From NCBI RefSeq assembly GCF_000215705.1, contig NC_015677.1, positions 1 through 64,000 on the forward strand: DNA of 64,000 nucleotides. Reading direction: 5' to 3'. The stretch comes from Ramlibacter tataouinensis TTB310 (lineage in GTDB: Bacteria; Pseudomonadota; Gammaproteobacteria; Burkholderiales; Burkholderiaceae_C). The translations under genes were made by a program, and so were the position numbers. Positions 30 to 24,129 of the stretch are shown here, in pieces. Numbering within the stretch: position 1 is the first letter of the stretch; each line of letters opens with the position of its first letter. The notes under the pieces are model-generated. The model was not told where the DNA came from, did no database searches, and worked only from the letters and a program-made list of their open reading frames with translations.

Positions 30-38
30 ATATCCACA
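30..38 (+). promoter_or_regulatory. DnaA box upstream of dnaA
   Basis: ATATCCACA differs from the consensus DnaA box TTATCCACA only at the first base and lies 17 bases before the dnaA start codon. This fits the usual DnaA autoregulation of dnaA. The sequence further upstream is outside the window, so it is unknown whether this is a single box or the edge of an origin cluster. Confidence 0.55.
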
Positions 39-54
39 AAGGCAGCAGCGTTTG

Positions 55-5273
<5,219 letters not shown>

Positions 5274-5368: not shown

Positions 5369-5497
5369 TAATCACATAGTGGAGAAGTGAGTGCAACTGC
5401 AACCGTGCGCCTCCAATTGCAGATGCTACGCCAAGCTCTTAGGCTGCAACTTCCCGCAAAGGGAGGCAGATCCAATTCTCTCGATTGCACTCGCTCC

Positions 5498-7731: not shown

Positions 7732-10264
7732 ACCCACGGTCGAGGAGATCCTCGCACTAAAACCCGAAGCCAGGCCTCGCATCTACGCCTACTCGATTGA
7801 CGACGAGGCACACAAGGGCCTCCTCAAGATCGGGCAAACAACGCGGAACGTAAAGCGGCGCGTCGCCGAGCAGGTTAAGACCGCCGCAATCAAGAACTAT
7901 AAGATTGAGCTGGACGAATTTGCGGAACGCAGCGACGGCACAATCTTTACCGATCATCACGTACGTGCGACGCTCGTCAAGAAGGGTTTTAAGAACGCGG
8001 AGTTGGAGTGGATGCGATGCACAGTCGCTGATGTGCGAACCGTGGTCACCGAACTCCGCACCAACCAGCAGCTGACCGGCACCCATCACGCGACTTTCCC
8101 GATGCGCCAAGAGCAAGCCGAGGCGGTAAGAAAAACGCACGCCTACTTCCACTCGATTTGGAAGGAAGACATGCACGCAGTCCCGAGATTCCTCTGGAAC
8201 GCGAAGATGCGCTTCGGTAAAACTTTTACCACGTACCAGTTGGCCAAGAAGCTCGGCGCCAAGCGGGTGCTCGTGGTGACCTTTAAGCCTGCGGTCGAGG
8301 ATGCGTGGCAGACCGACCTCGAATCTCACGCGGACTTTGATGGGTGGCAATACCTCTCCCGCAACTCCGACAAGGACCCGACCAAGATCGACCGCAGAAA
8401 GCCGGTAATCTATTTCGGTTCCTTTCAGGACCTTCTTGGCCGTGACTTGGCAGGAAATATCAAGCCCAAGAACGAATGGCTTCATGAGGTGAGGTGGGAC
8501 CTTGTCGTGTTCGACGAGTACCACTTCGGCGCCTGGCGGGAGACTGCAAAGGAACTCTTCGAAGGTGAGGAAGATGCGATCTCCAAGAAGGAGGCTAAGC
8601 TCGAGTACGCAACGGCTATGGAGGAAGTGAACGAGACTCTGCATGTACTTTCCGAGCCAGAAGCTGAGTTCCTCCCCATAACCACCAAGGCGTATCTCTA
8701 TCTCTCCGGCACCCCGTTCAAGGCGCTGGCCACGGGTGAGTTCATCGAGGAGCAGAGCTTCAACTGGACGTACACCGACGAGCAGCGCGCGAAGGCAGAG
8801 TTTGCCGCTAGGTGGCCCGGCGAATGGAACCCGTACGGTGCGCTGCCGCAGATGCGCCTGCTCACGTACCAGATGCCCGACGAATTGGTGGCAATTGCAA
8901 GCGCCGGGGAGTTCGACGAGTTCGACCTCAATGAATTCTTTGCGGCCTCTGGCACGGGCAAGGGTGCCAAGTTCAAGCACAAGAGTGACGTGCAGAAGTG
9001 GCTGGACATTATCCGGGGCTCATACACGCCGCAAGTGGTCGCGCATCTTAAGACTGGAACGCGACCGCCATTTCCATATTCTGACGTCCGCCTGCTGCCG
9101 TACTTGCAGCACTCGTTCTGGTTCCTCCCCAACGTTGCGGCCTGCCACGCGATGGCGAACTTACTGGCCGAGAGGCACAACACCTTCTGGCACGGCTACG
9201 ATGTCGTGGTCGCCGCCGGGGCGTCGGCGGGAATCGGTCTGGATGCATTGCTGCCCGTGCGGAAGGCCATCGAAAGCGGGTTCGACACCAGGACGGTCAC
9301 GCTGTCGTGCGGCAAGCTCACGACGGGCGTCACCGTGCCTCAGTGGTCGTCCATCCTGATGCTGCGCAACTTGAAGTCGCCGGAGACCTACTTTCAGGCC
9401 GCATTTCGCGTGCAGTCTCCGTGGTCCATCAAGAACCCTAACGGCGACAATCCGAATGAGGAGGAGATCCTCAAGCCGGTCTGTTTTGTGTTCGACTTCG
9501 CGCCAACCCGCGCACTGCGACAACTCTCCGAGTACGGAATCGGGCTCTCGCCAAACGACCCAAACCCGGAGAATGCTGTGAAAGATCTGGTGTCGTTCCT
9601 GCCCGTGCTGGCCTACGACGGCGCTAACATGACGCAGGTTGACGCGGGTGGGATTCTCGATATTGCGATGGCAGGCACCTCGGCCACGTTGCTAGCTCGC
9701 AAGTGGGAGTCAGCGCTACTGGTGAACGTGGACAACGATACCTTACGCCGCATTCTGGATAACCCGGAGGCCATGGCTGCCGTGGAGCGTATCGAGGGCT
9801 GGCGCTCGCTCGGCGACAACGTCATTGAAACGATCATTAACAAGAGCGATAAGGTCAAGGATCTCAAAAACAAGGCCAAGGAGCGCGATCTCACACCGAA
9901 GCAGGAGAAGCAGCTCACCGAGGAGGAGAAGGAGTACAAATCCAAGCGTAAGCTGGTCCAGGAAAAACTAATCAAGTTCGCGACGCGCGTTCCTGCGTTC
10001 ATGTACCTGACCGACTTCCGCGAGAACACGCTTAAAGATGTGATCACCAAGTTGGAGCCCGATCTATTCCTGGCCGTCACCGGCCTGACCGTGAAGGACT
10101 TCCACCTGCTAGTGCGCTTGAAGGTGTTCAATACCGAACAGATGAACCAAGCCGTCTTTGCTTTCCGCCGGTATGAAGACGCCTCGCTCCGCTACACCGG
10201 CATTGAGAGCCATGAAGGCTTAACCCACTTCGGGCTCTACGATACGGTGGTGGCAAGGGATTGA
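7718..10264 (+). CDS. GIY-YIG (T5orf172-like)/SF2 helicase restriction protein
   Basis: The protein (848 aa) begins with a GIY-YIG-like domain (about residues 21-110: RIYAYSIDDE, then GLLKIGQTTRNVKRR), followed by a superfamily 2 helicase. Visible motifs are the Q motif PMRQEQAEAV (128-137), an unusual Walker A NAKMRFGKT (161-169), DEYH (266-269), SGTP (330-333), and late motifs around KLTTGVTVPQWSS and QAAFRVQSP. The last 250 residues are charged and unassigned. It overlaps the methyltransferase gene (second possible start at 7724). The likely job is ATP-driven cleavage of unmethylated foreign DNA, with GIY-YIG as nuclease. This is inference from architecture and operon. Confidence 0.8.
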   Translation: MAMSKPTVEEILALKPEARPRIYAYSIDDEAHKGLLKIGQTTRNVKRRVAEQVKTAAIKNYKIELDEFAERSDGTIFTDHHVRATLVKKGFKNAELEWMRCTVADVRTVVTELRTNQQLTGTHHATFPMRQEQAEAVRKTHAYFHSIWKEDMHAVPRFLWNAKMRFGKTFTTYQLAKKLGAKRVLVVTFKPAVEDAWQTDLESHADFDGWQYLSRNSDKDPTKIDRRKPVIYFGSFQDLLGRDLAGNIKPKNEWLHEVRWDLVVFDEYHFGAWRETAKELFEGEEDAISKKEAKLEYATAMEEVNETLHVLSEPEAEFLPITTKAYLYLSGTPFKALATGEFIEEQSFNWTYTDEQRAKAEFAARWPGEWNPYGALPQMRLLTYQMPDELVAIASAGEFDEFDLNEFFAASGTGKGAKFKHKSDVQKWLDIIRGSYTPQVVAHLKTGTRPPFPYSDVRLLPYLQHSFWFLPNVAACHAMANLLAERHNTFWHGYDVVVAAGASAGIGLDALLPVRKAIESGFDTRTVTLSCGKLTTGVTVPQWSSILMLRNLKSPETYFQAAFRVQSPWSIKNPNGDNPNEEEILKPVCFVFDFAPTRALRQLSEYGIGLSPNDPNPENAVKDLVSFLPVLAYDGANMTQVDAGGILDIAMAGTSATLLARKWESALLVNVDNDTLRRILDNPEAMAAVERIEGWRSLGDNVIETIINKSDKVKDLKNKAKERDLTPKQEKQLTEEEKEYKSKRKLVQEKLIKFATRVPAFMYLTDFRENTLKDVITKLEPDLFLAVTGLTVKDFHLLVRLKVFNTEQMNQAVFAFRRYEDASLRYTGIESHEGLTHFGLYDTVVARD

Positions 10265-10404
10265 AAGGCGAGCTTTGCAGCCTCGCCCCAACCCCGCTTA
10301 TCGACTTCTTCTTGAAAGGGCGGATCGCTAACTCGTTGGCAGGCTCTCCTCTGTCATCCTCCGCGAGTTCAAGCTACGTGAAATTGTTGTCCATGTCTGG
10401 TAAC

Positions 10405-11045
10405 CACGGCGCGCAGCTGCACGCCAGGAGCTACCGCAGCCGTAGCCCAGGCGTGCTGAGTGGCGCGGTCGCCTAGGTAGCAGGTGCGTTTGGTCGCGCA
10501 CCAGCTGACCAGCGCGTCGCCGCCCAGCTCGCGCCAGTTACCAGCCTTGTCGCACCACATCAGAAGGTCTCGACCACTGGCGCGTATCCAGTCCCAGGCC
10601 TGGGGCGGCCTGCAGCCTATTTGGGCGTGTCGTCGCGGCAGTCGGGATAACCGGAGTAGTCGGTCTCGCACATACCACCTCTGGCACCTGACGCGCCGGT
10701 AGGAAAAGGCGGCGGTGAAGGTGAAGAGATTAGATTGCGGCAGAGGACGAGGGTGTTCGACAAACTTTTCTGCTCGCATTCGGTGGCCCTGTCGATGGCA
10801 GGTGCCGTGTTGCTCACCTGGCCAAGGGCTTGTGATCCAGCACATGGTCAGGGGGCGATTTGGCGACCAGCGGATGAACTGTGCCTTGAGCCCGTCCATT
10901 ACACGCAGGCGCACCTCCAGCTCTACACAGTAGCACTGGCGTAGTCGAAGCCAACGTCTCCACGTGCTCGTATCGGTCCAGCGCCCAGGCCAGGCAGCTG
11001 GTTGAGTCTTGCCTTCGGAGAAAAGGACGAGGGCGCGTGTGGGCC
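10405..11045 (-). pseudogene. queC: Degenerate copy of queC
   Basis: Read on the minus strand, this stretch aligns along its whole length with the intact queC at 21098-21802. Shared blocks include RALVLFSEGK versus [36 protein letters not shown] and TCYLGDRATQH. Frameshifts break it into several frames, and both the ATP-pyrophosphatase loop SGGQDS and the C-terminal cysteine cluster are lost. It cannot make a working 7-cyano-7-deazaguanine synthase. Divergence is much greater than for the nearby exonuclease fragments, so this copy is older or came from another strain. Confidence 0.85.
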
Positions 11046-11063
11046 AACGGCAATTCTTCTCAC

Positions 11064-11771
11064 TCAAGGGCTCAGCGGCGGACCAGCATTCTTGGGCCAA
11101 GTCGTATTGAGTTCCGCAGTACGAACAACGTACATATCCTCCTCCGTCCAATAAGCAGTCCAGTCCTTGTTCTGGGCGACTATGAGAACACATTGCGCTG
11201 AGTCATACTCCATGCGCATTAGGCGCACACAACTTTTAGGCTGGTGTACCTGGTGAGCTTGCATTCCTCTTACTGCTGCCTTTCCGCCAAGTTCATGCGC
11301 CTGCAAGGGCAGGAAGAGCAGCACAGCAGCCATCGACAGCACGACCCATGGGACAGCAGAGAAAAAAATGATTCCACGTGCGACGACGACGGATAGGTTT
11401 GTCCATCTGTTGTTAATCACGGCCTGAACGCGCGTGTTCTCAGCCCATGCTTTCGCCTTAGTGAAGATAAGCCCTAGAAGGACGCCGACGCACAAGCATG
11501 CAGCGATATATAGAACCAGCCACGCAAAACTACCTTTCAACAACCGAAGCGATGTAAGCCAGGCTTCGAGCGCCGCTATGAACGCCCAGTAGCTAAGCTC
11601 CATGGCGGAATCCGGGTACAGAAGGCCCGGAACGATGCCGAAGGCTTGCAGATAACCCATTCGGTACATAAGGCCGCAAGAAGTGAATAGCGCAGCAAGC
11701 GCTCCGCTTGAAAGAATCCACCTAGCTATCAATACGGTGGCGGCGTGATTCTTCTCGGCTTCTTCTTTCAT
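11064..11771 (-). CDS. Orphan multi-pass membrane protein, function unknown
   Basis: I do not recognise this 235-aa protein. It shows about four hydrophobic segments (residues 12-35, 58-78, 80-105, 130-155) followed by a soluble C-terminal tail of about 80 residues with two cysteines. The start ATG at 11771 is the only good one. It lies between the queC remnant and the first exonuclease fragment, in lower-GC DNA, and shares no operon with neighbours. Membrane proteins in such positions can be effectors or immunity proteins of defence systems, but nothing here shows that. Confidence 0.6.
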   Translation of the reverse strand: MKEEAEKNHAATVLIARWILSSGALAALFTSCGLMYRMGYLQAFGIVPGLLYPDSAMELSYWAFIAALEAWLTSLRLLKGSFAWLVLYIAACLCVGVLLGLIFTKAKAWAENTRVQAVINNRWTNLSVVVARGIIFFSAVPWVVLSMAAVLLFLPLQAHELGGKAAVRGMQAHQVHQPKSCVRLMRMEYDSAQCVLIVAQNKDWTAYWTEEDMYVVRTAELNTTWPKNAGPPLSP

Positions 11772-11812
11772 ATAGGTGTAGCTCGGCTTGACTCCAGGGC
11801 CGCTATTCTCCT

Positions 11813-12228
11813 ATGCCCCGCACCGCCGTCATCGACTTCGAGACCATCGGCCTGTCGCCCACCAGGGGGACCGCGCCACCGAGGGGGCCATCGTGCTGAT
11901 GGAGGGCGACCGGGTGGTGGACCGGTTCCAGTCGCTGATGAACGCGGGCGTGCGCATCCCGCCCTTCATCGAGGCGTACACCGGCATCAGCAATGCCATG
12001 ATCGCCGGCGCGGGCCGAGGCGGCGCGCTTCGTAGGCGACACGCCCCTGGTGGCGCATAACGCCTCGTTCGACCGGCGCTTCTGGCAGGCCGAGCTGGCG
12101 CGCGCCGGCTGCCAGGCGCGCCAGCCCTTCGCCTGCACCCTGCTGCTGCCGCGCCGGCTGTACCCGCAGGCGCCCAGCCACAAGCTCGGCTCACTGGCGG
12201 CCTTCCATGCGCTGCCCTCCTCGGGCCG
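11813..12228 (+). pseudogene. Exonuclease 5' fragment, copy A
   Basis: This stretch is nearly identical to the first two thirds of the intact DnaQ-like exonuclease gene at 20413-21027. It carries a 1-base deletion near base 52 of the gene and a 20-base deletion in the middle, and similarity stops abruptly after the segment for HALPSSGR, before the catalytic HRALADAE motif. It is therefore non-functional. It lies immediately left of the McrB-like gene. Confidence 0.9.
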
Positions 12229-12308
12229 GGTGGTTCGCGAAGACGCGCCTGCTACCCAGCGTTGTCAGTTCGTTCGGCGCGGTATCCTCTTATGCAGAGG
12301 AGATCAGC

Positions 12309-15023
12309 ATGGCCAGGTACTGCGGGGAAGTCAATGTCGGCCCTATCCTTGATGCCGCCGCACTTTGGAGGGATGTCGCTCTTCTCGGACAAGGGTCTGT
12401 TTTCGTCAAGGAACGTTCAGTTTGGACACTAGAGGCGCTTGCAGCCCTTGACGAGTTCTATGTCCAAAGACCTGACGAGGGTGAAGGTGGGTTTCATGAG
12501 AAGTTGAAGGCCCAGGTAGAACCCGCAGGCCCAACAGCCATACAGTTGGCTGCAGAGTTGATGTGGGTCATGTACTTGTGCCCGCGAAAGATCAGTGCTG
12601 CGAAGAAGCGTCAGACCATCCAAACGATCTGGGGGTGGTCTGGGGACATCTTTCCGGCCGACTCGCCGTGGTTGAAGGAAGAAGTGCTTTCCGGCATCGG
12701 AAGCGCAGGCCCCGGATTCAATCAGAACCAGTGGCGCGAGCTAGTTTTCGTGATCGGTCTCGTCACGCAGTTCAAAAGGCTCTCGGCAGATGAACAACGG
12801 GGCTTGTTAGCTGACCCTTGGCGGTTCGACGCGTGGGTCAGCGTACTACCTGATGCTGACTCGCGGCAGTTCCGGCACATGGTGTTGTTCTTGCTGTTCC
12901 CAGATGTCTTCGAGCGGTTCTTTGGCCAGACAGATCGTCGCGCCGTTGCTACGCATTTTTCGGCTCGGGACAAGCGCGTGGTGGCCCGACTGAGTAACTT
13001 GGAGCTGGATCGAGAGCTTTGGGAAATTCGCCAAGCCGTGGAGCGGCAGGAGGGTCGAACGGACCTCGACTTCTATCTGCCGCCTTTGCGGGATCGGTGG
13101 AAGTCTGAGTCTGTGGCGGAAATCACTTCGGCCGTGACGCGGCAACACGTCCTTGAAGCCCTGCGGCGCATAGACGCTGAAGAAGTCCCTGCGGACGCCA
13201 GATCTACTTTCTATGATCTGCTGCACGAAGGCCGGCGGTACCCCCCGAAGTACGTCTTGTCGGTTGCCGTCGCAGTCGCTACGGGGGAACCTCTAGACCG
13301 AGGAGCGTTTAGCGGAGGCGAGGACTCAACGTGCTTTCGCGTGCTTAGAGATAGAGGGTTCGAGATAGTACCGAAACCCACCGGGGCAGATGTTGAGGGC
13401 CAACTAAGATCCTTTGTAAAACAGGCGCTAGAGGCCACGGACCTTAAGACCCAAGCTTATGCCAGCGAGTACCGCGAATTTCGGGTCAAAGTCAGCTTCG
13501 GCCAAGGCAACGTTGCACGAATTCCTTGGATGGCCTGGCTGGGCAATGAGGAGCGCGTGTCCAATGGCATATATCCAGTGTTATTACTCTTCCGCAAACA
13601 AAGGGTCGTACTACTTTGCTACGGGGTAAGTGAGACCGCCGAACCTGAGCGCAGCTGGCAAGAGCTCTCTAGCAAAAAAAGCGTCCGCGAATGGTTCCAA
13701 GAAAATGTTGGTCGTGACCCTGCTCGCTATGGAAGCTCTTATGTGGCCTGGGGGTCGAAGGTAGATGCCCTCGATTTCTCGAGACTGCATCGGGAGTTGG
13801 ACCAGTTACTAGACATCTACTCAGCAACTCTTGCGACGAGCCCGCAAGAAGACGATCCGATCGAGGTTGCGGATGACAAACTGTCGCGGCGCCTAGCTCT
13901 TCGCGAAGCCACCGATGCATTCGCAGACGCTCTCTTGAGCTGTGGGGTGAACTTCGGCGAGAGCCATGCACTCACTGCCAGCACCTTCCTGGCCAGTCTA
14001 ATGACAAAACCCCTCGTCATCCTTACTGGATTGTCTGGCTCGGGCAAGTCTCAGATTGCGGTGCGACTTGGGGAGTGGTTGGGGGCGACAGAGCGACTAC
14101 TGGTTGTTCCGGTGCGGCCAGATTGGACCGGCGCGGAGGCCTTGTTCGGCTTTGAAGACGGTCTCAAGCCGAGCAAAGAGGGTCTGCCTGCTTGGCAAGT
14201 CCCCGGCACGCTGAGTTTCATGCTGCGCGCGCATCGAGACCCGCAACACCCCTATCTGCTTGTCTTGGACGAGATGAACCTTGCGCACGTTGAAAGGTAC
14301 TTCGCGGACGTGCTCTCCGGGATGGAATCAGGGCAGCCTTGCATACCTGACCTCCGCTTCGACAAGCAAGATGGGAGCTGGAGACCAGTAACACGGGGTG
14401 CGCGAGTGCCTTTCCCGAAAAATCTCTGGATTGTGGGGACGGTAAACGTCGATGAAACCACGTACATGTTTTCCCCCAAAGTTTTGGACCGGGCGAATAC
14501 TCTTGAGTTTCGTGTTCGCACCAGCGATCTGACCTTGAGCCCAAAGAAGCCAACAGCGTGCGAAGCCGGGGACAAGGAGCTGATTCGCGGGCTGTGTGCT
14601 ATCGCATCCGATGACGACTGGCATGTAAATCGCCCCTCGAGCGAGCAGGCCGAGTTGGTGAAAGCTCTTCACGCACTTCATGCGCTGCTGAGCGGCTTCA
14701 ATCTCGAGTTCGGCCATCGTGTCTTCTACGAAGCCGTGCGCTTCGCTGCAATGGTCGAGCAATCAGGTGTCAGCGGATTGGCCGGCGTTCTAGACCTTAT
14801 CGTTCTACAGAAGATTCTGCCTCGTATGCATGGCTCGCGTCGGCGCATTGAGGCACCCCTGGTCGCACTGCGCGACTTCTGTCAGGATTTACCTGGACTG
14901 GTGCAGCCCGCCTCAAGCAGCGTGGCACCGCAGGTGCTGATCTCCTTGCCTCGTTCGTTTGCGAAGCTGGATCGCATGCTGGTCGCGCTCAGAGCGAACC
15001 AGTTCGTGAGCTTCTCGGAGTAA
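12309..15023 (+). CDS. McrB-like AAA+ GTPase/ATPase subunit of a modification-dependent restriction system
   Basis: The 904-aa protein has a long N-terminal region (1-270, unassigned), a segment resembling the ScoMcrA-type head domain (about 280-365, with GRRYPPKYVLS and FSGGEDS), a MrcB/DUF3578-like domain (about 370-520, with GNVARIPWMAWL), and a McrB-type AAA+ motor: Walker A GLSGSGKS (574-581), DEMN (654-657) and sensor GTVNVDETT (710-718). The ATG at 12309 is preceded by AGAGGAG at 12296-12302, which fixes the start; an upstream ATG at 12207 lies inside the exonuclease remnant. It probably powers translocation for the nuclease encoded 6 bases downstream. What modified base it reads is unknown. 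Confidence 0.8.
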   Translation: MARYCGEVNVGPILDAAALWRDVALLGQGSVFVKERSVWTLEALAALDEFYVQRPDEGEGGFHEKLKAQVEPAGPTAIQLAAELMWVMYLCPRKISAAKKRQTIQTIWGWSGDIFPADSPWLKEEVLSGIGSAGPGFNQNQWRELVFVIGLVTQFKRLSADEQRGLLADPWRFDAWVSVLPDADSRQFRHMVLFLLFPDVFERFFGQTDRRAVATHFSARDKRVVARLSNLELDRELWEIRQAVERQEGRTDLDFYLPPLRDRWKSESVAEITSAVTRQHVLEALRRIDAEEVPADARSTFYDLLHEGRRYPPKYVLSVAVAVATGEPLDRGAFSGGEDSTCFRVLRDRGFEIVPKPTGADVEGQLRSFVKQALEATDLKTQAYASEYREFRVKVSFGQGNVARIPWMAWLGNEERVSNGIYPVLLLFRKQRVVLLCYGVSETAEPERSWQELSSKKSVREWFQENVGRDPARYGSSYVAWGSKVDALDFSRLHRELDQLLDIYSATLATSPQEDDPIEVADDKLSRRLALREATDAFADALLSCGVNFGESHALTASTFLASLMTKPLVILTGLSGSGKSQIAVRLGEWLGATERLLVVPVRPDWTGAEALFGFEDGLKPSKEGLPAWQVPGTLSFMLRAHRDPQHPYLLVLDEMNLAHVERYFADVLSGMESGQPCIPDLRFDKQDGSWRPVTRGARVPFPKNLWIVGTVNVDETTYMFSPKVLDRANTLEFRVRTSDLTLSPKKPTACEAGDKELIRGLCAIASDDDWHVNRPSSEQAELVKALHALHALLSGFNLEFGHRVFYEAVRFAAMVEQSGVSGLAGVLDLIVLQKILPRMHGSRRRIEAPLVALRDFCQDLPGLVQPASSSVAPQVLISLPRSFAKLDRMLVALRANQFVSFSE

Positions 15024-15029
15024 CTGCCG

Positions 15030-17252
15030 GTGGGTGAAGAGTTGCTAGTGCAAACCGCCTTGCGCGGTGTGCAATCCACCTATGTGCTGCGCATATCCGC
15101 ATTGCCAGGGAAGTCAGCTCCCCGTGTGAAGTTATTGGACGGGTCTTCGTATGAACTCGTCCAGCTTTTTGAAGGAGAGGAGTACCTCTATTCATGGGAG
15201 GGCCCGGCGGGCGACGTCGTCACCGAACCGCGCGAGCTGTTCCGACCCGATCGCCATTCCGGGAGGTCCGGACGGCTCCGAACAGGCCTATCGGTGGGGT
15301 TCGTTCCCGTGACTGTCTTCTCAGGATTAGTTGAGGCTGGCACTTGCGAGTTGGAGGTTCGCCCCCGGAAGCTCACGTACGAGGACGAGTACAAGTGGAT
15401 GTTGCGCGACATTGCCGAGCAGATGGCTGAACTCTTGATGGAGCGCTTCGCAGCTAGCGACCTTCAGTTCTCCGTTGATGTTGAGCGCAATGCGTCGACG
15501 CTGTATCAGCGATTCGAGTTCTTGCGAGCATTGATCGGAAGCGAAGACTTTCAAGGTGCGATGCAGGAGGTCTTGCGGCGCCCGCACACTGGTTGGGTGA
15601 CAACGCCTACGCCTGTAGAAATTTCACGTGGGGTGCGGCCATCGTCCAACATTTCTAAGCAGCTTGCGCGGCGCGGTATTGATGCGAGAAATCTGGGACT
15701 GCTGGGTCATTTTGATGGCGCAAGATCAATCTTTGAAGACAAGACGGAGGCCACGCACGACACGACGCCAAATCGGTTTGTGAGGCATGCGTTCCGGCAC
15801 TGGCTGTTTCTGCTTGGTGACCTGCAAGTAGCGCTGGAGAAGCAAACACGGACAGCGCCAATTGCCCGAGGCCTTGCGGAGGTCAGGGAGCTAGCGTCCA
15901 CGATCGAGCAGTTCATCTCGGATGACCTTTTCCTAGCTCTTGGTGATCTCGATCGCTTCCCAAGTGAAGACCAGGTCTTGCAGAAGCGACAAGGCTACCG
16001 GGAGGTCTTTCGCGCGTTTCTGGAGTTTGAGCTCGGCGCACTCCTAACTTGGAGCGACAGTAGCTTTGCGGCTGGAACACGAAACGTGGCGGCGACGTAC
16101 GAGTATTGGGCGTTCCTTCAGCTTGCGAAGTGCGTAGCTCGAGTAGCAGGCGTCGACTTTGCCATGGCGGACTTGCTGACGCTTGATCAGTTCGGACTCT
16201 CAGTTCAGATCAGGAAGGGCGTCGAACAGGTCTTCTGCGGCATTGCAGTACGCAATGGCAGGCGTATGTCCATCGAACTCTGGTTCAACAAAACTTACGG
16301 CGTGCCGCAGGGATCTTGGTCGAGGTCAATGAGGCCCGACTACTCGCTGCTGATTCAGCCAGAGAGCCGGGACAAGCCGTTCGAGATCGTACTGGTCCAT
16401 TTCGATGCAAAGTACAGAGTCCAATTCATTCGCAATCTTCTCCTCTCCTCCGAGGGACTGGAAGAGGGCGAGGTATCTGATGAAGAAGCGCTGACGCGCG
16501 GCGAGGCGACAAGCGGCGACCTGTTGAAGATGCACGCTTACCGCGACGCTATCCGACGAACATCTGGTGCGTATGTCCTATACCCGGGAGGCGACGCCGA
16601 GTTAGGGCGAAAACCTCTTAGTGAGTACCAAGAGCTTTTGCCTGGGCTGGGCGCTTTTGTACTTCGCCCGGCGGAGGGCGGCGATGTCCTAGGCAGTGTA
16701 GAGCTTCAAGGATTCATAGAGCGCGTGGTAGACCATTCGGCTACCAGGCTTACGCAACACCAGCGGAGTCGTTATTGGGAAGATGCCGTATACGCGCCGA
16801 CCGACTCCACCCGCGACGTCTACGCTGGTCTCCCACCTGGATCGGCGACGGTACTACTAGGGTTTGTGAAGAGTAAGGAGCACTGGGAATGGATTAAAAA
16901 GACCGCCTCTTACAACGTGCGGGTTAGTGGCCGCGAAGGCGGAGTAGGAGCAGATTCGGTTCTTTTTAACGCACAGCTGATTCTCTTGTACTGTCCTAGC
17001 ATTAACAAAGTCCGCTTAGCGCGACTCGTGGCGGGGCCGGAGCAGCTTTCTGCTTTGGAGCTCAAGGCGACTGGATACCCCCAGCCACAGGGGCCCTTGT
17101 ACTGGTGCGTTCAACTGCTTTGGGTAAACCGACCAGAGTGGACAGAGAAGCTGAGTTGCAAGCTGGTAGAAGTTGCCGTCAGCTCACAGGGCGGTCCACT
17201 CGGCGGGCCGGTGCTCATGACGTGGGCGGCGCTCCTGAGTACGGCGTCGTAG
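15030..17252 (+). CDS. McrC-like DUF2357/PD-(D/E)XK nuclease subunit
   Basis: This 740-aa protein matches the DUF2357-type partner of McrB proteins. A PD-(D/E)XK-like core is visible: RPD (435-437), HFDAK (457-461) and KMHAYRDAI (500-508). The segment near the C-terminus starting LLGFVKSKEHWEWI is conserved in this family. It starts with GTG, with GGAG at the end of the upstream gene serving as ribosome site; the 6-base gap indicates one transcription unit. Together the pair should cleave foreign DNA that carries modified bases. The GC content is below that of flanking host genes. Confidence 0.78.
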   Translation: MGEELLVQTALRGVQSTYVLRISALPGKSAPRVKLLDGSSYELVQLFEGEEYLYSWEGPAGDVVTEPRELFRPDRHSGRSGRLRTGLSVGFVPVTVFSGLVEAGTCELEVRPRKLTYEDEYKWMLRDIAEQMAELLMERFAASDLQFSVDVERNASTLYQRFEFLRALIGSEDFQGAMQEVLRRPHTGWVTTPTPVEISRGVRPSSNISKQLARRGIDARNLGLLGHFDGARSIFEDKTEATHDTTPNRFVRHAFRHWLFLLGDLQVALEKQTRTAPIARGLAEVRELASTIEQFISDDLFLALGDLDRFPSEDQVLQKRQGYREVFRAFLEFELGALLTWSDSSFAAGTRNVAATYEYWAFLQLAKCVARVAGVDFAMADLLTLDQFGLSVQIRKGVEQVFCGIAVRNGRRMSIELWFNKTYGVPQGSWSRSMRPDYSLLIQPESRDKPFEIVLVHFDAKYRVQFIRNLLLSSEGLEEGEVSDEEALTRGEATSGDLLKMHAYRDAIRRTSGAYVLYPGGDAELGRKPLSEYQELLPGLGAFVLRPAEGGDVLGSVELQGFIERVVDHSATRLTQHQRSRYWEDAVYAPTDSTRDVYAGLPPGSATVLLGFVKSKEHWEWIKKTASYNVRVSGREGGVGADSVLFNAQLILLYCPSINKVRLARLVAGPEQLSALELKATGYPQPQGPLYWCVQLLWVNRPEWTEKLSCKLVEVAVSSQGGPLGGPVLMTWAALLSTAS

Positions 17253-17417: not shown

Positions 17418-19679
17418 TCAGAACGTCAGCCAGGTCCCTCGCAGCCCCTGCTGCTCCACGCCCGGAACCGACCAGTTGCATACCCCCGTCGGGAACACCG
17501 TAGCCAGGCGCTGCATCTGCTGCGCGGTGAATGGCACCCCGTAATCGGTGATGGCCACGGGCTTGAGCGTGCACTTGATGACATCGGCGGCGAGCGGCGC
17601 GCCGGCGGTGGCGCGGGGTGCGGGCGGTGCCGGATAGAGGGCCGCGCACTGGCCGCTGCCGGGCTGCTGCTTCTCCGCGATGAACTGGGGAGTCGCATCG
17701 CGCGTGTTGCAGCCTTCCTGCAGCGTCTGCGGCTTGTTGCGCACCACCTTCTCGTGCTGGCTGCCGCCGGCCTGGTCGGCCTGGATCGCCGCGAGCCACT
17801 TGTCCATCTCGGCCAGGGCTCGCATCAGCAGCGGGCTCGTGCTGGAGTAGTAGCCGTAGCGGAAGTCCTCGACCAGCATCACCTGGTTGTCGGCATCGCC
17901 GTTGGCCTTGATCAGCCGCTCGCGCATGGAGAAGGAGTGGTAGCGCAGGTGGATGTCCCCGACCGGGTTGTCGTCGCTGTACGCGCGGTAGTCGATGATG
18001 GGCACGTCCTTCAGCCCGCCGCCGCCGCTGGTCAGCCGGCCCGTCTGGTAGGCCTGGCGGGTCGCGAGCGGGTCGGCCACGGTGCGCTGGACCTGGAAGC
18101 CCGCATCGCGGTCGTAGCCGCCGATGCGCTCGTTGAGCTGAAGGAACTGGTCGACCGTGATCGTGCCGGCATTGAGTGCCGCGAGCCCGTACTGGACGCC
18201 CTCGTTGTCCAGCGGCCGCCGCGCGAAGCCCGTCGCGGGATCGGTTCCGAGCGCGTTCTCCATGTGTTCGTAGATGTCGCAGCGGGCCCCGGTGCGATGG
18301 GTCGCCGGGTCGTAGCGCTGCGCTTCCGGCAGGACCGTGGGACAGTAGGTGCGGGTGCCGCCGAGCGTGCGGGTGGCCCGGTCCAGCGGCACGAAGGGCC
18401 CGGGCGCGACGCGCATGGCGCCGTTGAAGACGGTGTCGGTGTACAGGGTCTCCAGGTTCTGGATGCCGGCCACCTGCCGCTGCTGCTCGTTGCTGAAGGT
18501 GCCGGGGGCGGTCTGCAGGAAGTAGTTGCCGAGCAGCCGCATGTCCGTGATGGCGTACACCGTGGCAAAGCCCACCTCCGGGAAGCTGCAGCCCGGCAGG
18601 ATGCCGTCGAGCAGGCCCGGGTAGTTGTCGGCGATCTGGTGCTGCTGGTAGGAGCCGCCCGAACAACCCCAGCCGATGGTGTAGCGCGGCCGGCCGTAGG
18701 CCTCGATGAAGCGTTCCTTCACCATCGCCATCGACTCCGCCGCCGTGAGGTCCTGGCAGTTGTTGCCGAACACGTTGAGCGAGGACGATGCGATGGCGTA
18801 GCCTTGCTGGAGGATGTTCGCGTCCAGCACGCCGCCCGTGGTGCTGCCCTGGCGGTACCAGCCTCCGGTGCAGCCGCCACCGAAGGTGTAGACCAGCTTG
18901 CCGTTCCAGCCCGCCGAGCGGGCGGCGGGCGAGGGCGTCGTGCCGTCGGCCGGGTTGTGCAGCACCGCCGTCTGGTAGATGGCACGGTTCACGGTACCCG
19001 TTTCCAGCCGCACCACGAAGGGGACGGTCCGCCCATCGGTGGTCGTGGTGGTGGCGGCATCGGCCGGCACGGCGTTTGGCGCCGGCAGCGGCGCGATGGT
19101 GCCTGCGGCCGTGCGGTAGACATAGTCCACCCGCGTGTCGGCCGAGCAGCTGGCGTCCTTGGCCGGGCCGAGGAACGGCCCGTCCGGGTACAGCCGGAAG
19201 GTCTGGGTCTCGCACACGAACGGCGTCTCTTGCGGGCCGCTGAACAGCGGGCCTGTGCGGGGATGGTTGACCACTCGCAGGGTCGTGCGGCCGGAGGCCT
19301 CGGTTCGGCCGTCCTCCACCAGCTCCAGCACGATCTCGTTCGCACCATTGGCCAAGCCGCTCACCAAGCCGACCGGCTTGCCGTCCGTCGGGTCCGGCGC
19401 AAAGCTCGCTGCCACCCGACTGCCATTGACGTTCACGCGCACACTGCTGCCGGCCGGTACATCGCCTTGCACCTTCAGCAAGACGTCGCCGCCCGTGACG
19501 CGATCGGCGCTGGTCGAGGAGAGCACCGCCGCTGTGATGGCGCGGCGCTCGGCATTCTCGTTGCCGCGGTCGTCACCGTCACCGCCGCCGCAGGACGCGA
19601 GCAACACCGCGGCGAATATGGCGGACAACTGGCCCGGCGCAACGCGGGCAGGCCGTCCACCGGAGATGGAGCGTTCCAT
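17418..19679 (-). CDS. DUF6351 family lipoprotein, predicted alpha/beta hydrolase
   Basis: The 753-aa protein begins with a lipoprotein-type signal peptide ending LLASCGGG, so it should be anchored to a membrane outside the cytoplasm. The start at 19679 is supported by AGGAGA eight bases upstream; longer frames lack this. A serine in GWGCSGGSYQQ looks like the nucleophile elbow of a hydrolase, and the protein resembles DUF6351, a family distantly like tannase/feruloyl esterase enzymes. Its substrate is unknown. Codon use is high-GC like the host. The stop codon abuts exonuclease fragment B. Confidence 0.75.
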   Translation of the reverse strand: MERSISGGRPARVAPGQLSAIFAAVLLASCGGGDGDDRGNENAERRAITAAVLSSTSADRVTGGDVLLKVQGDVPAGSSVRVNVNGSRVAASFAPDPTDGKPVGLVSGLANGANEIVLELVEDGRTEASGRTTLRVVNHPRTGPLFSGPQETPFVCETQTFRLYPDGPFLGPAKDASCSADTRVDYVYRTAAGTIAPLPAPNAVPADAATTTTTDGRTVPFVVRLETGTVNRAIYQTAVLHNPADGTTPSPAARSAGWNGKLVYTFGGGCTGGWYRQGSTTGGVLDANILQQGYAIASSSLNVFGNNCQDLTAAESMAMVKERFIEAYGRPRYTIGWGCSGGSYQQHQIADNYPGLLDGILPGCSFPEVGFATVYAITDMRLLGNYFLQTAPGTFSNEQQRQVAGIQNLETLYTDTVFNGAMRVAPGPFVPLDRATRTLGGTRTYCPTVLPEAQRYDPATHRTGARCDIYEHMENALGTDPATGFARRPLDNEGVQYGLAALNAGTITVDQFLQLNERIGGYDRDAGFQVQRTVADPLATRQAYQTGRLTSGGGGLKDVPIIDYRAYSDDNPVGDIHLRYHSFSMRERLIKANGDADNQVMLVEDFRYGYYSSTSPLLMRALAEMDKWLAAIQADQAGGSQHEKVVRNKPQTLQEGCNTRDATPQFIAEKQQPGSGQCAALYPAPPAPRATAGAPLAADVIKCTLKPVAITDYGVPFTAQQMQRLATVFPTGVCNWSVPGVEQQGLRGTWLTF

Positions 19680-19689
19680 GGGTTTGTCT

Positions 19690-20080
19690 CCTGTCGATGT
19701 TGTGGGGAAAGGTCTGGACACTAGTCCTTCGCTTCCGTGGGACAGGAGGGTGTTAACACCGGGGTACAAGGTGCTACTGGGGCCTGCACGACAGTGGGTA
19801 AGGCCCGCCGCGTGCGGGTCTGGGTCGATGCGCTGCACGGGGACGGCTGAGACGCGTTGCTTCGACTTGCATGGTTCACAGGCTCTAACACGTCGAGGTC
19901 CATGCGCTCAGGCAAGCGCAGCGCTCGGCAGCGCGAACACGGTGCGCAACTGGGCAGGCGCTCCTCGGTCGACATCGTGGCGCGCTATCTCGCACCCACG
20001 GTGCCCACGGCATCGGCGAGCGGCGCGTGAGCGCGGTTTCCCTCGCCTGACAGTCACGCTGGCGCCGCAAGGACACCTGC
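19690..20080. other. Non-coding or unrecognised interval
   Basis: I see no convincing gene here. Short open frames on both strands lack ribosome sites and family resemblance; one plus-strand frame near 19901-20029 could encode about 42 residues but nothing supports it. The interval presumably carries the DUF6351 promoter. Confidence 0.5.
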
Positions 20081-20412: not shown

Positions 20413-21027
20413 ATGCCCCGCACCGCCGTCATCGACTTCGAAACCACCGGCCTGTCGCCCACGCAGGGCGACCGCGCCACCGAGGTGGCCATCGTGCTGA
20501 TGGAGGGCGACCGGGTGGTGGACCGGTTCCAGTCGCTGATGAACGCGGGCGTGCGCATCCCGCCCTTCATCGAGGCGTACACCGGCATCAGCAACGCCAT
20601 GGTCGCCGGCGCGCCGCGGGCCGAGGCGGTGATGGCCGAGGCGGCGCGCTTCGTGGGCGACACGCCCCTGGTGGCGCACAACGCCTCGTTCGACCGGCGC
20701 TTCTGGCAATCCGAGCTGGCGCGCGCCGGGTGCCAGGCGCGGCAACCCTTTGCCTGCACCCTGCTGCTGTCGCGCCGGCTGTACCCACAGGCGCCCAGCC
20801 ACAAGCTGGGCTCGTTGGCCGCTTTTCATGCGCTGCCCTCGTCGGGCCGCGCGCACCGGGCCCTGGCCGACGCCGAGGTGGCGGCCGCGCTGCTGGCGCA
20901 GATCCGCCACGACCTGCGGCGCCAGTACGGCATGGCCGAGTGCCGGCACGAGCTGCTGGTCCAGGTGCAGGGCGCGCCGCGCAAGTCCCTGCCCGCGGTG
21001 GTGGAGCGGTACCGGCAGGCGGGGTGA
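20413..21027 (+). CDS. DnaQ-like 3'-5' exonuclease
   Basis: This 204-aa protein is a DEDDh exonuclease of the DNA polymerase III epsilon type. ExoI is VIDFETTGLS (residues 6-15), ExoII is seen in AHNASFDRRFW, and ExoIII is HRALADAE. No polymerase-binding tail is evident, so it is probably a stand-alone nuclease for DNA or RNA ends rather than the replicative proofreader. It converges on queC, separated by a GC-rich palindrome. Two broken 5' copies lie at 11813 and 17299. Confidence 0.88.
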   Translation: MPRTAVIDFETTGLSPTQGDRATEVAIVLMEGDRVVDRFQSLMNAGVRIPPFIEAYTGISNAMVAGAPRAEAVMAEAARFVGDTPLVAHNASFDRRFWQSELARAGCQARQPFACTLLLSRRLYPQAPSHKLGSLAAFHALPSSGRAHRALADAEVAAALLAQIRHDLRRQYGMAECRHELLVQVQGAPRKSLPAVVERYRQAG

Positions 21028-21097: not shown

Positions 21098-21802
21098 TCA
21101 CGGCCCGGCCGTGGTGAACTGCGCCCAGCCACGCGCCCGCAGCTCGCAGGCCGGGCAGCTGCCGCAGCCATAGCCCCAGTCGTGACGGGTGGCGTGGTCG
21201 CCCAGGTAGCAGGTGTGCGTGCAGTCGCGCACCAAGTGCACCAGCGCGCCGCCGCCCAGCTCGTGGGCCAGCCGCCACGTGGCGGCCTTGTCAATCCACA
21301 TCAGCGGCGTCTCGATAACCAGGCGCGTGTCCAGCCCCAGGCCCAGGGCGACCTGCAGCGCCTTGAGCGTGTCGTCGCGGCAGTCGGGATAACCGGAGTA
21401 GTCGGTCTCGCACATGCCGCCCACCAGCACCGACAGCCCGCGCCGGTACGCCAGGGCGGCGGCGTAGGTGAAGAAAAGGAGGTTGCGGCCGGGCACGAAG
21501 GTGTTGGGCAGGCCGCTCGCTTCGAACTCGATGGCCTTGTCGGCGGTGAGCGCGGTGTCGCTCAGCTGGCCCAGGGTGGGAAGCTGGAGCACATGGTCGG
21601 TACCGAGCCGGACGGCCCAATGCGGGAACCGCGCCTTCAGCTGGTCCAGAAAGCGCAGGCGCACCTCCAGCTCCACGCGGTGGCGCTGGCCGTAGTCGAA
21701 GCCGACGGTCTCCACGTGCTCGTACCGGTCCAGCGCCCAGGCCAGGCAGGTGGCGGAGTCCTGGCCGCCGGAGAAGAGGACGAGGACGCGGGTGTGGGGC
21801 AT
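21098..21802 (-). CDS. queC: 7-cyano-7-deazaguanine synthase QueC
   Basis: QueC converts 7-carboxy-7-deazaguanine to preQ0 using ATP and ammonia, a step in queuosine tRNA modification. The 234-aa protein has the ATP-pyrophosphatase loop FSGGQDS (residues 10-16) and the zinc-binding cysteines in CTHTC and GCGSCPAC near the C-terminus. It appears complete. It is the intact counterpart of the remnant at 10405-11045. No dpd-type DNA modification genes lie nearby, so I read it as the housekeeping tRNA gene. Confidence 0.95.
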
Positions 21803-21872: not shown

Positions 21873-22952
21873 TCAATCGACCCGGTAGCGGGCGACCGCG
21901 TCCTCGTCCCAGACCATTCCCAGCCCGGGGCCCTGCGCGCTCACGCATCCGTCCTTCAGCGTGCAGGGCGACGCCAGGACCGCCGAGCCGAAGTCCATGA
22001 ACTCCAGCCAGTCGCAGGTCGGCGTGACGGGCAGCACGTGGGCGCTGGCCTCGATGAACAGATGGCTGGACACCGGCATGGATGCGGCCTGGGCGGCGCC
22101 CATCACGCCCAGCCAGCCCGTGATGCCGCCGATCTTCATCAGGTCCGGCATCATGCGGTCGCAGGCGCGGGCGCTGACGGCCCGCTCGGCATCGCGGGCG
22201 AACCACCAGTTCTCGCCGGTCTGGATGGGGATGCGCGACTGCGCCCGCACCTGCGCATGGCCTTGCAGGTCCTCGGCGGCCACGGGCTCCTCCACCCACT
22301 CCAGGTCGAACGGCTCCAGCGCGCGGATGCGCCGGATCGCCTCGCCGGGCGCCAGGCTCTGGTTGTAGTCGACCATCAGCGCGATGCCGTCGCCGACGAT
22401 GCGCCGCACCTCGCGGACGGTCGCCAGGTCGTGGGCCAGGTCGCCGCCGCCCAGCTTGATCTTGATGCCGCGAAAGCCCTGCGCCACCGAGCGCTCCAGC
22501 GCCGCGGCGTCGCGTGCCGGATCGACCAGGCCCCAGCTGTCGTAGGCGCGCACGGGCTGCGGCTGGCCGCCGAGCAGCCGCACCACGGGTTGCCCGGCGG
22601 CCTTGCCCAGGGCGTCCCAGCACGCCATGTCCAGGGTGGACAGCAGCATGCCCAGCAGGCCCTGCCGCCCCAGCAGGCGGAACTGCCGCTCCAGCTGCTG
22701 CTGCAGCGTGAACGGCACCACCGGCTGGCCGCGCAGAAGCGGTGCCAGCTGGCCGGCCAGCACGGACAGCGGCTGGAGCACCACGGGCGTGTAGGCGAAC
22801 AGGTAGGCGCTGCCGGTGATGCCCTCGTCGGTGAGCACGTCCAGCAGCAGCAGCGGCGCGGCCTCGACCGCGCCCGACGCCGTGCGGACGGGCCGGACGA
22901 GGGGCGCGACCACGGCGCGGGCCTGCAGGTCCCGGAGGGTGAGGGGTTCCAT
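21873..22952 (-). CDS. Mandelate racemase/muconate lactonizing enzyme family protein
   Basis: A 359-aa member of the enolase superfamily. It has the KxK catalytic pair in GIKIKLGG, metal ligands in VDYNQ, WVEEP and QTGEN, and a histidine in SSHLFIE, the pattern of the mandelate racemase subgroup, which abstracts an alpha proton from a carboxylate. The physiological substrate cannot be assigned. I start at the ATG at 22952 (MEPLTLRDL); an ATG three codons earlier is possible. The 295 bases upstream, before nhaR, hold the candidate origin. Confidence 0.85.
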
Positions 22953-22998
22953 GCGGCGCATCCTAGCCGGGCCCGGCGCCGCCGCCAACGCACAAAGC

Positions 22999-23232
22999 TG
23001 TGGATAGTTCCGGCACAACCGAGGGCTTATCCACAGCGGGGGCGGCGCGGCCGGAGTTGTTCATTTTGGCGGGACACCTCGGACGCTGGGCCGCGCACAG
23101 CTTTCAGGAGCACGCAAGTCCTTGCCGGCATTGGCTAAATTCCGGTTGTCCACACCCGGGTGCGGCCCTTACTACTACTACTAATTTGAAATAGAACTCT
23201 TAAGAGAGAAGACAAGGGCCAGCTTCTCCACA
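22999..23232. other. Candidate chromosomal replication origin (oriC-like DnaA-box cluster)
   Basis: Within 234 non-coding bases there are four DnaA boxes: TGTGGATAG (22999-23007, reverse), the perfect TTATCCACA (23027-23035), TTGTCCACA (23146-23154) and TTCTCCACA (23224-23232). The third box is followed by a short GC-rich block, then TTACTACTACTACTAATTT (23169-23187) and AT-rich sequence to about 23210. Box, GC block, trinucleotide repeat and AT-rich stretch in this order match the basal unwinding element of bacterial origins. The surrounding genome is about 70% GC, so the AT-rich part stands out. Confidence 0.7.
23169..23187 (+). promoter_or_regulatory. DnaA-trio repeat and start of AT-rich unwinding element
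   Basis: Four tandem TAC triplets followed by TAATTT read, on the complementary strand 3' to 5', as consecutive ATG-ATG-type trios (3'-GAT-5'). This is the pattern bound by the DnaA filament on single-stranded DNA. The repeat lies 14 bases after the DnaA box at 23146-23154, close to the spacing described for known origins. Confidence 0.6.
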
Positions 23233-23240
23233 AAAGATTT

Positions 23241-23256
23241 CCGCGCGTCAGCGCGG
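23241..23256 (-). terminator. Hairpin overlapping the nhaR stop codon
   Basis: CCGCGC-GTCA-GCGCGG forms a 6-bp stem with the nhaR stop codon in the loop. On the minus strand it is followed by AAATCTTTT, a weak T tract. It could end the nhaR transcript before the origin-like region. Confidence 0.35.
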
Positions 23257-24129
23257 CTGCGTAAGCTGCCGCAGCAGGGGGTGCTGGACCTTTTTCTCGC
23301 TGGTGATGGCGATGAAATGCTCCTCCACGCCGGCGCAGTCGCCCACATGGCGCACCCGCCAGCGCTGGCGCAGCTCGTCGTCCACCAGGGCCGCGGCCGG
23401 GAACACGCCCATGCCGCTGGCGCCGAAGGTCTTGAGCAAGGCGCTGTCCTCGAACTCGCCGACCACCCGCGGGCGGATGCCCTGCCGGTCGAACCAGTGG
23501 TCGAGGCGGTCGCGCACGGCCGTGTGGACGGTGGGCAGCAGCACCGGCACTTCGGCCAGCGACTGCGGAAAGCCTTTTTTCGCCTTGGCGTGCAGCGAGG
23601 CCTCGGCGTACCAGGCGATGGGCGAGGCGCCCAGGGCATGGCTGTACAGCTTGATGCTGGGGTTGGCCGGCGCCGGCCGGTCGGCGATCACCATGTCCAG
23701 GCGGTGCAGCGCCAGCTCGCCCAGCAGGTCGTCGAACTCGCCGTCGTGGCACAGCAGGCGCAGGTGCGGCGCGTGAATGATGGGGTCCAGCAGGTGGCGC
23801 ACCGCCATCTTGGGCAGGCCGTCCGAGATGCCCACGGCCAGCCGCAGGCTGGGGGTGCTGGCCGCCTCGCGCACCAGGGTGGGCAGGGTCTCGCCCAGCT
23901 GGAAGATCTGGTCGGCCTGGTGCAGCGCGGCGCGGCCGGCCTCGGTCAGCGCCAGGCCGCGGCCGGCCGGCTTGAACAGGGCATGGCCTAGCGCTCGCTC
24001 CAGCTCGCGCACCTGGGCGCTGACGGTCTGCACCGCCATGCCCAGCCGGTCGGCGGCGCGGGTGACGCCGCCTTCCTTGGCCACGACCCAGAAGTAGTAC
24101 AGGTGGCGATAGCTGAACGGGGTGCTCAT
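23248..24129 (-). CDS. nhaR: LysR-family regulator, NhaR-like
   Basis: The 293-aa protein has an N-terminal winged helix-turn-helix (residues 5-65, YRHLYYFWVVAKEGGVTRAA) with the HLYYFW signature of NhaR, the sodium/pH-responsive activator, and a LysR substrate-binding domain. The start at 24129 removes a longer unconserved extension. It is divergent from terC with 92 bases between them, so it may control terC and itself. No nhaA antiporter gene is in the window. Confidence 0.8.
   Translation of the reverse strand: MSTPFSYRHLYYFWVVAKEGGVTRAADRLGMAVQTVSAQVRELERALGHALFKPAGRGLALTEAGRAALHQADQIFQLGETLPTLVREAASTPSLRLAVGISDGLPKMAVRHLLDPIIHAPHLRLLCHDGEFDDLLGELALHRLDMVIADRPAPANPSIKLYSHALGASPIAWYAEASLHAKAKKGFPQSLAEVPVLLPTVHTAVRDRLDHWFDRQGIRPRVVGEFEDSALLKTFGASGMGVFPAAALVDDELRQRWRVRHVGDCAGVEEHFIAITSEKKVQHPLLRQLTQPR

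Follow-up and report, generated by a model that had tools for sequence, protein, structure and literature searches.

The 295-bp intergenic gap at 23 kb of the Ramlibacter tataouinensis TTB310 chromosome most probably holds the replication origin, oriC, of this bacterium, in a relocated position; we put the probability of this reading at about 0.92. The gap carries a module with the anatomy of an origin, which is present as a single full copy in the genome and is conserved among relatives, where it occupies several displaced sites and has left remnants. These features point to origin activity of the block. We speak of an origin that was relocated rather than pushed away because the ancestral site of the module appears, from the comparison of relatives, to be the dnaA-dnaN gap, i.e., before dnaN. 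The original prediction of a chromosome origin away from dnaA thus receives strong comparative support (a sequence model recovers the module in 44/44 good-quality genomes of the genus), but strand asymmetry in TTB310 does not place the origin.

Anatomy of the origin-like block

R. tataouinensis TTB310 is a desert soil bacterium. The window, i.e., the whole 64-kb stretch of DNA that was analysed, corresponds to bases 1–64,000 of a genome assembled as one contig (4,070,193 bases), which starts at dnaA; the genome paper gives the chromosome as 4,070,194 bp with 70.0% GC (PMC3164672). The features of the window are as follows.

52–1464, + strand: dnaA (Pfam Bac_DnaA, DnaA_N, Bac_DnaA_C)
1465–1500, no strand: dnaA-dnaN gap, 36 bp, putative ancestral origin site
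1501–2607, + strand: dnaN (domain match)
2637–5273, + strand: gyrB (domain match)
5387–17252, + strand: low-GC defence island with Eco57I/type IIG-like methylase and helicase genes, an MrcB_N gene and a DUF2357/PDDEXK_7 gene
20413–21027, + strand: exonuclease gene, left flank common with G305 (families F18 and F32, the exonuclease/queC pair)
21098–21802, − strand: queC, left flank common with G305 (F32 is equated with queC by position)
21873–22952, − strand: mandelate racemase-family gene (MR_MLE domains), left border of the gap
22989–23223, + strand: conserved origin module (putative oriC, BUS type), the stretch aligned with the copies of relatives
22999–23007, − strand: DnaA box 1, CTATCCACA, at most one mismatch, within a conserved CTGTGGA block
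23027–23035, + strand: DnaA box 2, TTATCCACA, the only exact box of the window
23054–23062, + strand: weak box-like element, a candidate for DnaA binding, GAGTTGTTC here and AAGTTGTCC in the column-majority consensus (alignment columns 67–75)
23146–23154, + strand: DnaA box 3, TTGTCCACA, at most one mismatch, adjoining the trios
23155–23168, + strand: GC-rich spacer CCCGGGTGCGGCCC, 14 bp, 13/14 G or C
23169–23183, + strand: DnaA-trios TTA+CTAx4, five in frame (opposite strand 3'-AAT GAT GAT GAT GAT-5')
23184–23213, + strand: AT-rich segment directly after the trios, likely the unwinding region
23224–23232, + strand: DnaA box 4, TTCTCCACA, at most one mismatch, outside the conserved module
23248–24129, − strand: nhaR-like gene of the LysR family, bordering the gap on the right

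The prediction had described four DnaA boxes, one of them perfect, within 22,999–23,232, and a box, a GC-rich block, four TAC triplets and an AT-rich segment in that order, in a gene-free gap of 295 bases between nhaR and a mandelate racemase-family gene. All of these elements are present. The boxes were identified by a search allowing at most one mismatch to TTATCCACA; the gap, from the racemase start (22952) to the LysR stop (23248), is exactly 295 bp; and the racemase-family gene carries MR_MLE domains. Two points had to be amended. The neighbour named nhaR is a LysR-family gene scoring 200.3 bits, below the NhaR equivalog cut-off of 219 bits. As for the extent of the block, its elements are real, but the conserved module is larger (22,989–23,223) and box 4 lies outside it: no counterpart of this box (23224) was seen by eye in the printed loci of relatives.

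With this search, nine boxes were counted in the window versus 2.3 expected, a number that was reached in 0/100 shuffles. Four of the nine lie within 234 bp, the largest cluster in 200 order-1 Markov windows being two. Genome-wide, single boxes are modestly enriched (146, compared to 112 for the reversed pattern), and the evidential weight therefore rests on the cluster. The combination of box, spacer and four trios gave one match in the window and one in the 864 kb of the genome that were examined, and none in 200 order-1 Markov windows.

Comparison with BUS-type origins

Origins of the BUS type, composed of a DnaA-box, a GC-rich spacer and DnaA-trios as in Bacillus subtilis, were reportedly described by Richardson et al. 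in 2019 and are treated by Pelliciari et al. in 2021 (PMC8287927). The published search rule asks for a spacer of at most 16 bp and at least three trios, the published spacer lengths peaking at 10–13 bp (PMC8287927). In TTB310, the box near the unwinding site is TTGTCCACA at 23146–23154; the 14-bp spacer that follows (23155–23168) is just over this peak and inside the 16-bp limit (PMC8287927). The TAC x4 repeat at 23170–23181, read as trios, becomes TTA+CTA x4 at 23169–23183, hence more than the three required, and the 52 bp from 23169 are 65% AT in a genome of 70.0% GC. The order of box, spacer, trios and AT-rich DNA and the repeated trio 3'-GAT-5' are shared with the BUS-type origin of B. 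subtilis, and the dnaA-dnaN gap is the module site in many relatives of TTB310. By contrast, 22.5 kb separate the TTB310 module from the DnaA domain, and this interval includes dnaN and gyrB. Of the more general features of an oriC, retention of a single copy by relatives is found (one match in the genome, 44/44 good genus genomes), and adjacency to dnaA/dnaN is missing; adjacency is a common but unnecessary feature, which the same module displays in 22/59 genus genomes.

The module is conserved in the genus and in the family

The first loci read (20 loci, i.e., 22 copies from 19 genomes) showed similarity over ~235 bp. An alignment of 23 module copies has 239 columns, of which 44 are invariant, and displays a conserved series consisting of CTGTGGA, GGCACAAC, TTATCCACA, a TTGTC element, CACAG, GCAAGT, TTGATG, AAAGGGGAAAA, TTGTCCACA, the spacer and the trios. 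TTxTCCACA was found at box 2 in 23/23 copies, and likewise at box 3.

A sequence-only model, R1, was built from 22 related copies without that of TTB310; it ends before most of the trio. In the 4.07-Mb TTB310 chromosome it identified one site, 22,991–23,171, with 116.6 bits and E=1.9e-33 (these E-values are rough); no second match up to E=10 was obtained among the 150 of 2539 first-look candidates that were scored. R1 detected the module in 54/59 genomes of the genus and in 44/44 of those of good quality, for a total of 58 full and 12 partial matches; in the family, the numbers were 125/142 and 116/125, respectively. Because the 22 training copies had been selected by box and trio, the trio was tested separately: at least three trios directly follow the box in 25/28 of the best family loci outside the genus, compared to 9/1651 control windows.

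Plain box-trio patterns were rejected as evidence for conservation. TCCACAN{6,24}TACTACTA matched 115/299 family genomes and the looser TCCACAN{6,24}CTACTA matched 59/59 genus genomes, but the reversed controls matched about as often or more, and several matches resemble coding sequence. As the reversed controls matched too, these patterns served for finding loci only, and conservation rests on the alignment and the model. With respect to dnaA, many of these matches fell into two places, one directly behind the DnaA domain and the other tens of kb farther downstream.

The dnaA region of TTB310

As predicted, dnaA, dnaN and gyrB are transcribed toward the block: all three are on the + strand and the block is downstream. 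A dnaA-dnaN gap that holds the module could be measured in 21 genus genomes and is 234–252 bp long in 15 of them; no origin remnant was detected in the 36-bp gap of TTB310 (score 19 versus a shuffle mean of 19.7).

The gap on the other side of dnaA contains one exact and one near-exact box, ~40 bp apart (4,070,174–4,070,182 and window 30–38), and the sequence record begins at dnaA. Both observations would fit a true origin in the rpmH-dnaA region, the 23-kb block then being a DnaA-binding regulatory or titration site of the datA/DARS type. We regard this as highly improbable. Many chromosome records start at dnaA by habit. The same box pair is present in G272, G311, G310 and G336, which have the module at dnaA-dnaN, in the displaced G316, and in G132; in G346 the first box is kept and the second altered. 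No trios were seen by eye in the rpmH-dnaA gaps. Because the pair is found in relatives of both module states, as would be seen for a promoter element, it is likely a dnaA control or autoregulation element rather than an origin. A bipartite origin has two clusters of boxes around dnaA, the second cooperating with the unwinding cluster; in TTB310 the conserved pair in the rpmH-dnaA gap is 23 kb from the module. A datA/DARS-like site would be a cluster of boxes that lacks an unwinding module and exists in addition to an oriC. The 23-kb block, however, has a spacer and trios, which are needless in a titration site; its module occupies the dnaA-dnaN gap in 22 relatives, and it is the sole full module found in TTB310. 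The block does not fit a datA/DARS-like titration or reactivation site.

Further close DnaA-box pairs, candidate titration or reactivation sites, were noticed far from the origin region (G000:C1 515779/515967 and 2559055/2559117), as was a 234-aa frame with an additional weak match to Bac_DnaA, possibly encoding an Hda-like protein (G000:C1:2961520–2961681).

Position of the module across genus and family

In 22 of the 59 genus genomes, a copy of the module is located 1.0–1.25 kb beyond the point where the DnaA domain begins. The next gene is dnaN in 21 of these 22, namely those whose contig extends far enough. In 15, TTB310 included, the module is found only far off on the same contig, at 6.5–80 kb and always downstream, 13 being in the orientation of dnaA and two in the opposite one. 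The remaining genomes have the module on another contig (12), have it but are outside the dnaA list (5) or lack the module (5); among the 12 other-contig genomes, 11 were read and none of these has a full module in the dnaA-dnaN gap. The three outgroups all carry this module in the dnaA-dnaN gap. Taken together, this distribution argues for the dnaA-dnaN gap as the ancestral site.

The family survey included about one genome per genus. Among the 113 listed of the 125 genomes with a match, the module is at dnaA-dnaN in 52, at both positions in one, displaced on the same contig in 33 and on another contig in 27. Five of the 33 displaced modules are upstream of dnaA when contigs are taken as linear (G052, G106, G130, G087 and G072), and that of G121 is probably just upstream as well, since it lies at the far end of a single contig. 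The downstream rule of the genus therefore fails family-wide.

The flanks of the displaced modules differ. In G316, which belongs to the same 10-row clade as TTB310, the module is 1.7 kb past the end of the gyrB match and 6.5 kb from the DnaA domain, with gyrB on its left and a LysR gene on its right. TTB310 and G305 share the exonuclease and queC genes on the left. LysR or MFS genes are on the left in 7/12 loci read of the large displaced clade, and mnmG, parA, parB and parS in G272, G307 and G322 (loci L173, L159 and L170; mnmG was confirmed by Pfam GIDA in G272, and G307 and G322 have the same gene family). G340 and G350 have other flanks again. As mnmG-parA-parB-parS is at 74.6–80.3 kb in TTB310, 51 kb separating the module from mnmG, the TTB310 module lies between dnaA and parS; this is also the case in G004 and G114 and not in G015.

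The nhaR-racemase gap, whose conservation in related genomes the prediction had put forward as a check, is not conserved as an origin site outside the genus. Among the best 80 named of 528 confirmed relatives, 0/80 nhaR loci have at least three boxes or a BUS pattern within 1.5 kb beyond nhaR (or within the shorter stretch left at a contig end), and nhaR was thus discarded as an origin neighbour or marker in relatives. We read this result as an origin located elsewhere in those genomes, rather than absent.

Remnants, two-copy genomes and number of changes

Five of the 12 partial matches of the genus come from genomes with a displaced module, where they occupy the dnaA-dnaN gap (G340, G305, G322, G316 and G307; E 4e-8 to 5e-5). 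Three of the others adjoin a full module and four are weak matches elsewhere (E 4e-4 or worse). Local alignment of the five remnant gaps with six intact gaps gave scores of 85–121, compared to shuffle maxima of 33–53 (60 shuffles each), and the G307 gap contains a stretch that resembles a degenerate trio block when set against the intact block of G311. Where other displaced genomes show weaker similarity in this gap, signals upstream of dnaN may account for it instead of origin remnants. A block like GCAAGTGCTTGATGAAAAAGGGGAAAAT persists in the dnaA-dnaN gaps of several displaced genomes (L254, L263, L275, L280 and others) after decay of the boxes and trios; this block may also serve dnaN as a promoter element.

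Full double copies were found in four genus genomes. Three have whole-module copies in tandem, separated by 386 bp in G343 (L158), 484 bp in G322 (L170) and 331 bp in G300:C245. The fourth, G272, has a copy at dnaA-dnaN and another 29.7 kb downstream in the opposite orientation (L173 9455–9689 and L174 8098–8332, ~28.5 kb apart), both with boxes and trios. G132, from another genus, similarly has a copy at dnaA-dnaN and an opposite-orientation copy at 25.6 kb.

On a rapidly built tree from DnaA+DnaN+GyrB, which covers 51 genomes (48 genus members and three outgroups, a few rows being under half filled), at least seven changes between the two states are required, five of which are forced by strongly supported branches; a single clade of all 26 displaced genomes was rejected (p-AU 0.0002). 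Each change may represent a move or, where two copies had coexisted, the loss of one. The sequence comparisons suggest that origins moved several times among close relatives.

A different history, in which the block is still oriC, would have a genus ancestor with two origins, either of which was lost in its descendants, with few or no fresh moves. G272 retains both copies, the displaced copies of G272, G307 and G322 have common flanks beside mnmG-parA-parB, and G311 and G313, near kin of these three, have a single copy at dnaA-dnaN. Within the G272/G307/G322 clade such a history may be true. However, the displaced sites are unlike one another (LysR/MFS, mnmG-parAB, exonuclease-queC, and others in G340 and G350), and one ancestral second site does not explain all displaced copies; for the genus as a whole we consider this history rather unlikely. 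Acquisition of the module by horizontal transfer, instead of copying of the resident origin, could be suspected from the acquired DNA in the TTB310 neighbourhood, but the module is bordered by a racemase gene and a LysR gene, neither of them a mobile-element gene, and the module is found in 44/44 good genus genomes, which makes transfer very doubtful.

Contribution of the defence island to the dnaA-module distance

The block had been predicted to lie beyond a defence region, and it does: the island, directly after gyrB and with a GC content of 56–60%, extends from ~5.4 to 17.3 kb, and the module is at 23 kb. The MrcB_N and DUF2357/PDDEXK_7 pair of this island is McrBC-like (PADLOC PDC-M26A). 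An 806-aa tannase-like DUF6351 protein is encoded between island and module (window 17418–19838).

The prediction further proposed that insertions at 5–21 kb pushed dnaA and oriC apart. The island did lengthen the interval, but the separation probably predates it, and dnaN and gyrB are also in between. If the ancestral module was at dnaA-dnaN, an insertion after gyrB cannot create an arrangement in which dnaN and gyrB now intervene; the insertions are at best a secondary effect on the dnaA-oriC distance. That insertions alone parted dnaA from a stationary origin, as the low-GC island at 5.4–17.3 kb and dnaA-module intervals ranging from 6 to 80 kb within the genus might suggest, is extremely unlikely: with the ancestral site placed at dnaA-dnaN, intact dnaN and gyrB are on the dnaA side of the module, remnants persist in the old gap of other displaced genomes, and the displaced copies differ in their flanks, 2/15 being in the opposite orientation. 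We therefore retain relocation of the module as the preferred reading.

Strand asymmetry

The clear cumulative skew minimum anticipated for an origin is absent in TTB310, the breakpoints of three methods disagreeing between −200 and +264 kb. Over this range, a fourfold-site model with a strand term peaks at −195 kb; KOPS, counted with the consensus sequence, is best at −73 to −69 kb, the 23-kb position being 2.9 and dnaA 3.7 log units worse; and the k-mer score is best at ~95 kb. Asymmetry in TTB310 is weak, and raw skew, fourfold skew, KOPS and k-mer score fail to separate 0 from 23 kb. KOPS are polarised in far samples of the genome (51:17 in the right arm, 18:39 in the left arm).

Three relatives gave differing results. 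In G004 (−60 to +100 kb), the skew minimum is at 39,888, ~200 bp from the module (40,092) and 39.5 kb from dnaA, with a close second minimum at 48 kb; KOPS disfavoured dnaA by 3.45 log units and did not cleanly separate the three modules of this genome. In G114, the raw skew minimum at 95.3 kb is near the module at 101.9 kb, and KOPS favours 2–9.5 kb, the module being worse by 6.8 units. In G015, the raw minimum is at 26.9 kb, the fourfold model is best at the dnaA end and KOPS at 179–194 kb, the module fitting poorly throughout. Strand asymmetry thus supports the module in G004, is mixed in G114, is not in favour in G015 and gives no placement in TTB310.

Discussion

The anatomy of the block, together with published work on other bacteria, suggests a BUS mechanism. 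DnaA would fill the boxes and, from the box at 23146, would extend over the GC spacer onto the lower-strand trios; the AT-rich segment would then be opened by DnaA and helicases would load there. As to its history, in the TTB310 lineage a module copy would have come downstream of gyrB and the original would have been lost. The likely route is a duplication to a second site, a two-copy stage and the loss of one copy, an order to which the two-copy relatives and the remnants point. Within the genus, displacement would have arisen or reverted several times, downstream of dnaA in 15/15 same-contig cases, which in TTB310 is the mnmG-parAB-parS side; the defence island would later have widened the dnaA-oriC interval of TTB310.

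Origins away from dnaA and putative double origins are already known. The Escherichia coli oriC is beside gidA/mnmG, tens of kb from dnaA. TTB310 resembles it in that the origin is parted from dnaA, and the displaced copies of G272, G307 and G322 adjoin mnmG as well; in contrast, the TTB310 module has a racemase gene and a LysR gene as neighbours and is 51 kb away from mnmG, and here the position changes within a single genus. In Synechococcus lividus PCC 6715, the origin is listed as far from dnaA and dnaN (DoriC 10.0, PMC6323995), an origin-like box cluster being likewise away from the usual neighbour gene of the group; it is a single case in a database note, in which we saw no remnants or two-copy relatives described (PMC6323995). 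Putative double origins have been listed in bacteria, e.g., Ralstonia pickettii 12D (Gao 2015, PMC4403523), and like G272 and G132 these have more than one origin-like region per chromosome. The listed cases were identified from DnaA boxes, skew and the adjacent genes (PMC4403523), whereas the two copies of G272 and of G132 both match one sequence model and related genomes keep either. Among the open-licence papers listed by our searches, none was seen to describe a relocated origin in Comamonadaceae or Ramlibacter, or a genus in which the origin relocated repeatedly and left remnants and two-copy intermediates; neither 'oriC' nor 'dnaA' occurs in the main text of the TTB310 genome paper (PMC3164672).

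We tentatively propose, with somewhat less than even confidence, that the origin is slowly mobile in this family: new copies of the origin in the dnaA-dnaN gap would arise at other sites, the chromosome would for a time carry two intact origins, as G272 and G132 do at present, and either copy would then be lost, leaving remnants. Some present-day relatives may fire from two origins on one chromosome.

It is common practice to regard the origin as a fixed landmark. Assemblies are rotated so that they begin at dnaA, and this gene often serves as the reference point for skew, gene dosage and estimates of replication rate. In TTB310, dnaA is probably not the origin. Displacement would turn dnaN and gyrB from co-directional to head-on relative to the replication fork, a cost that selection must have tolerated. 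Within a single genus the position of the module ranges from the dnaA-dnaN gap to a point 80 kb downstream, and both remnants and a two-copy intermediate survive; how a bacterium switches its origin without dying is a question testable in living relatives.
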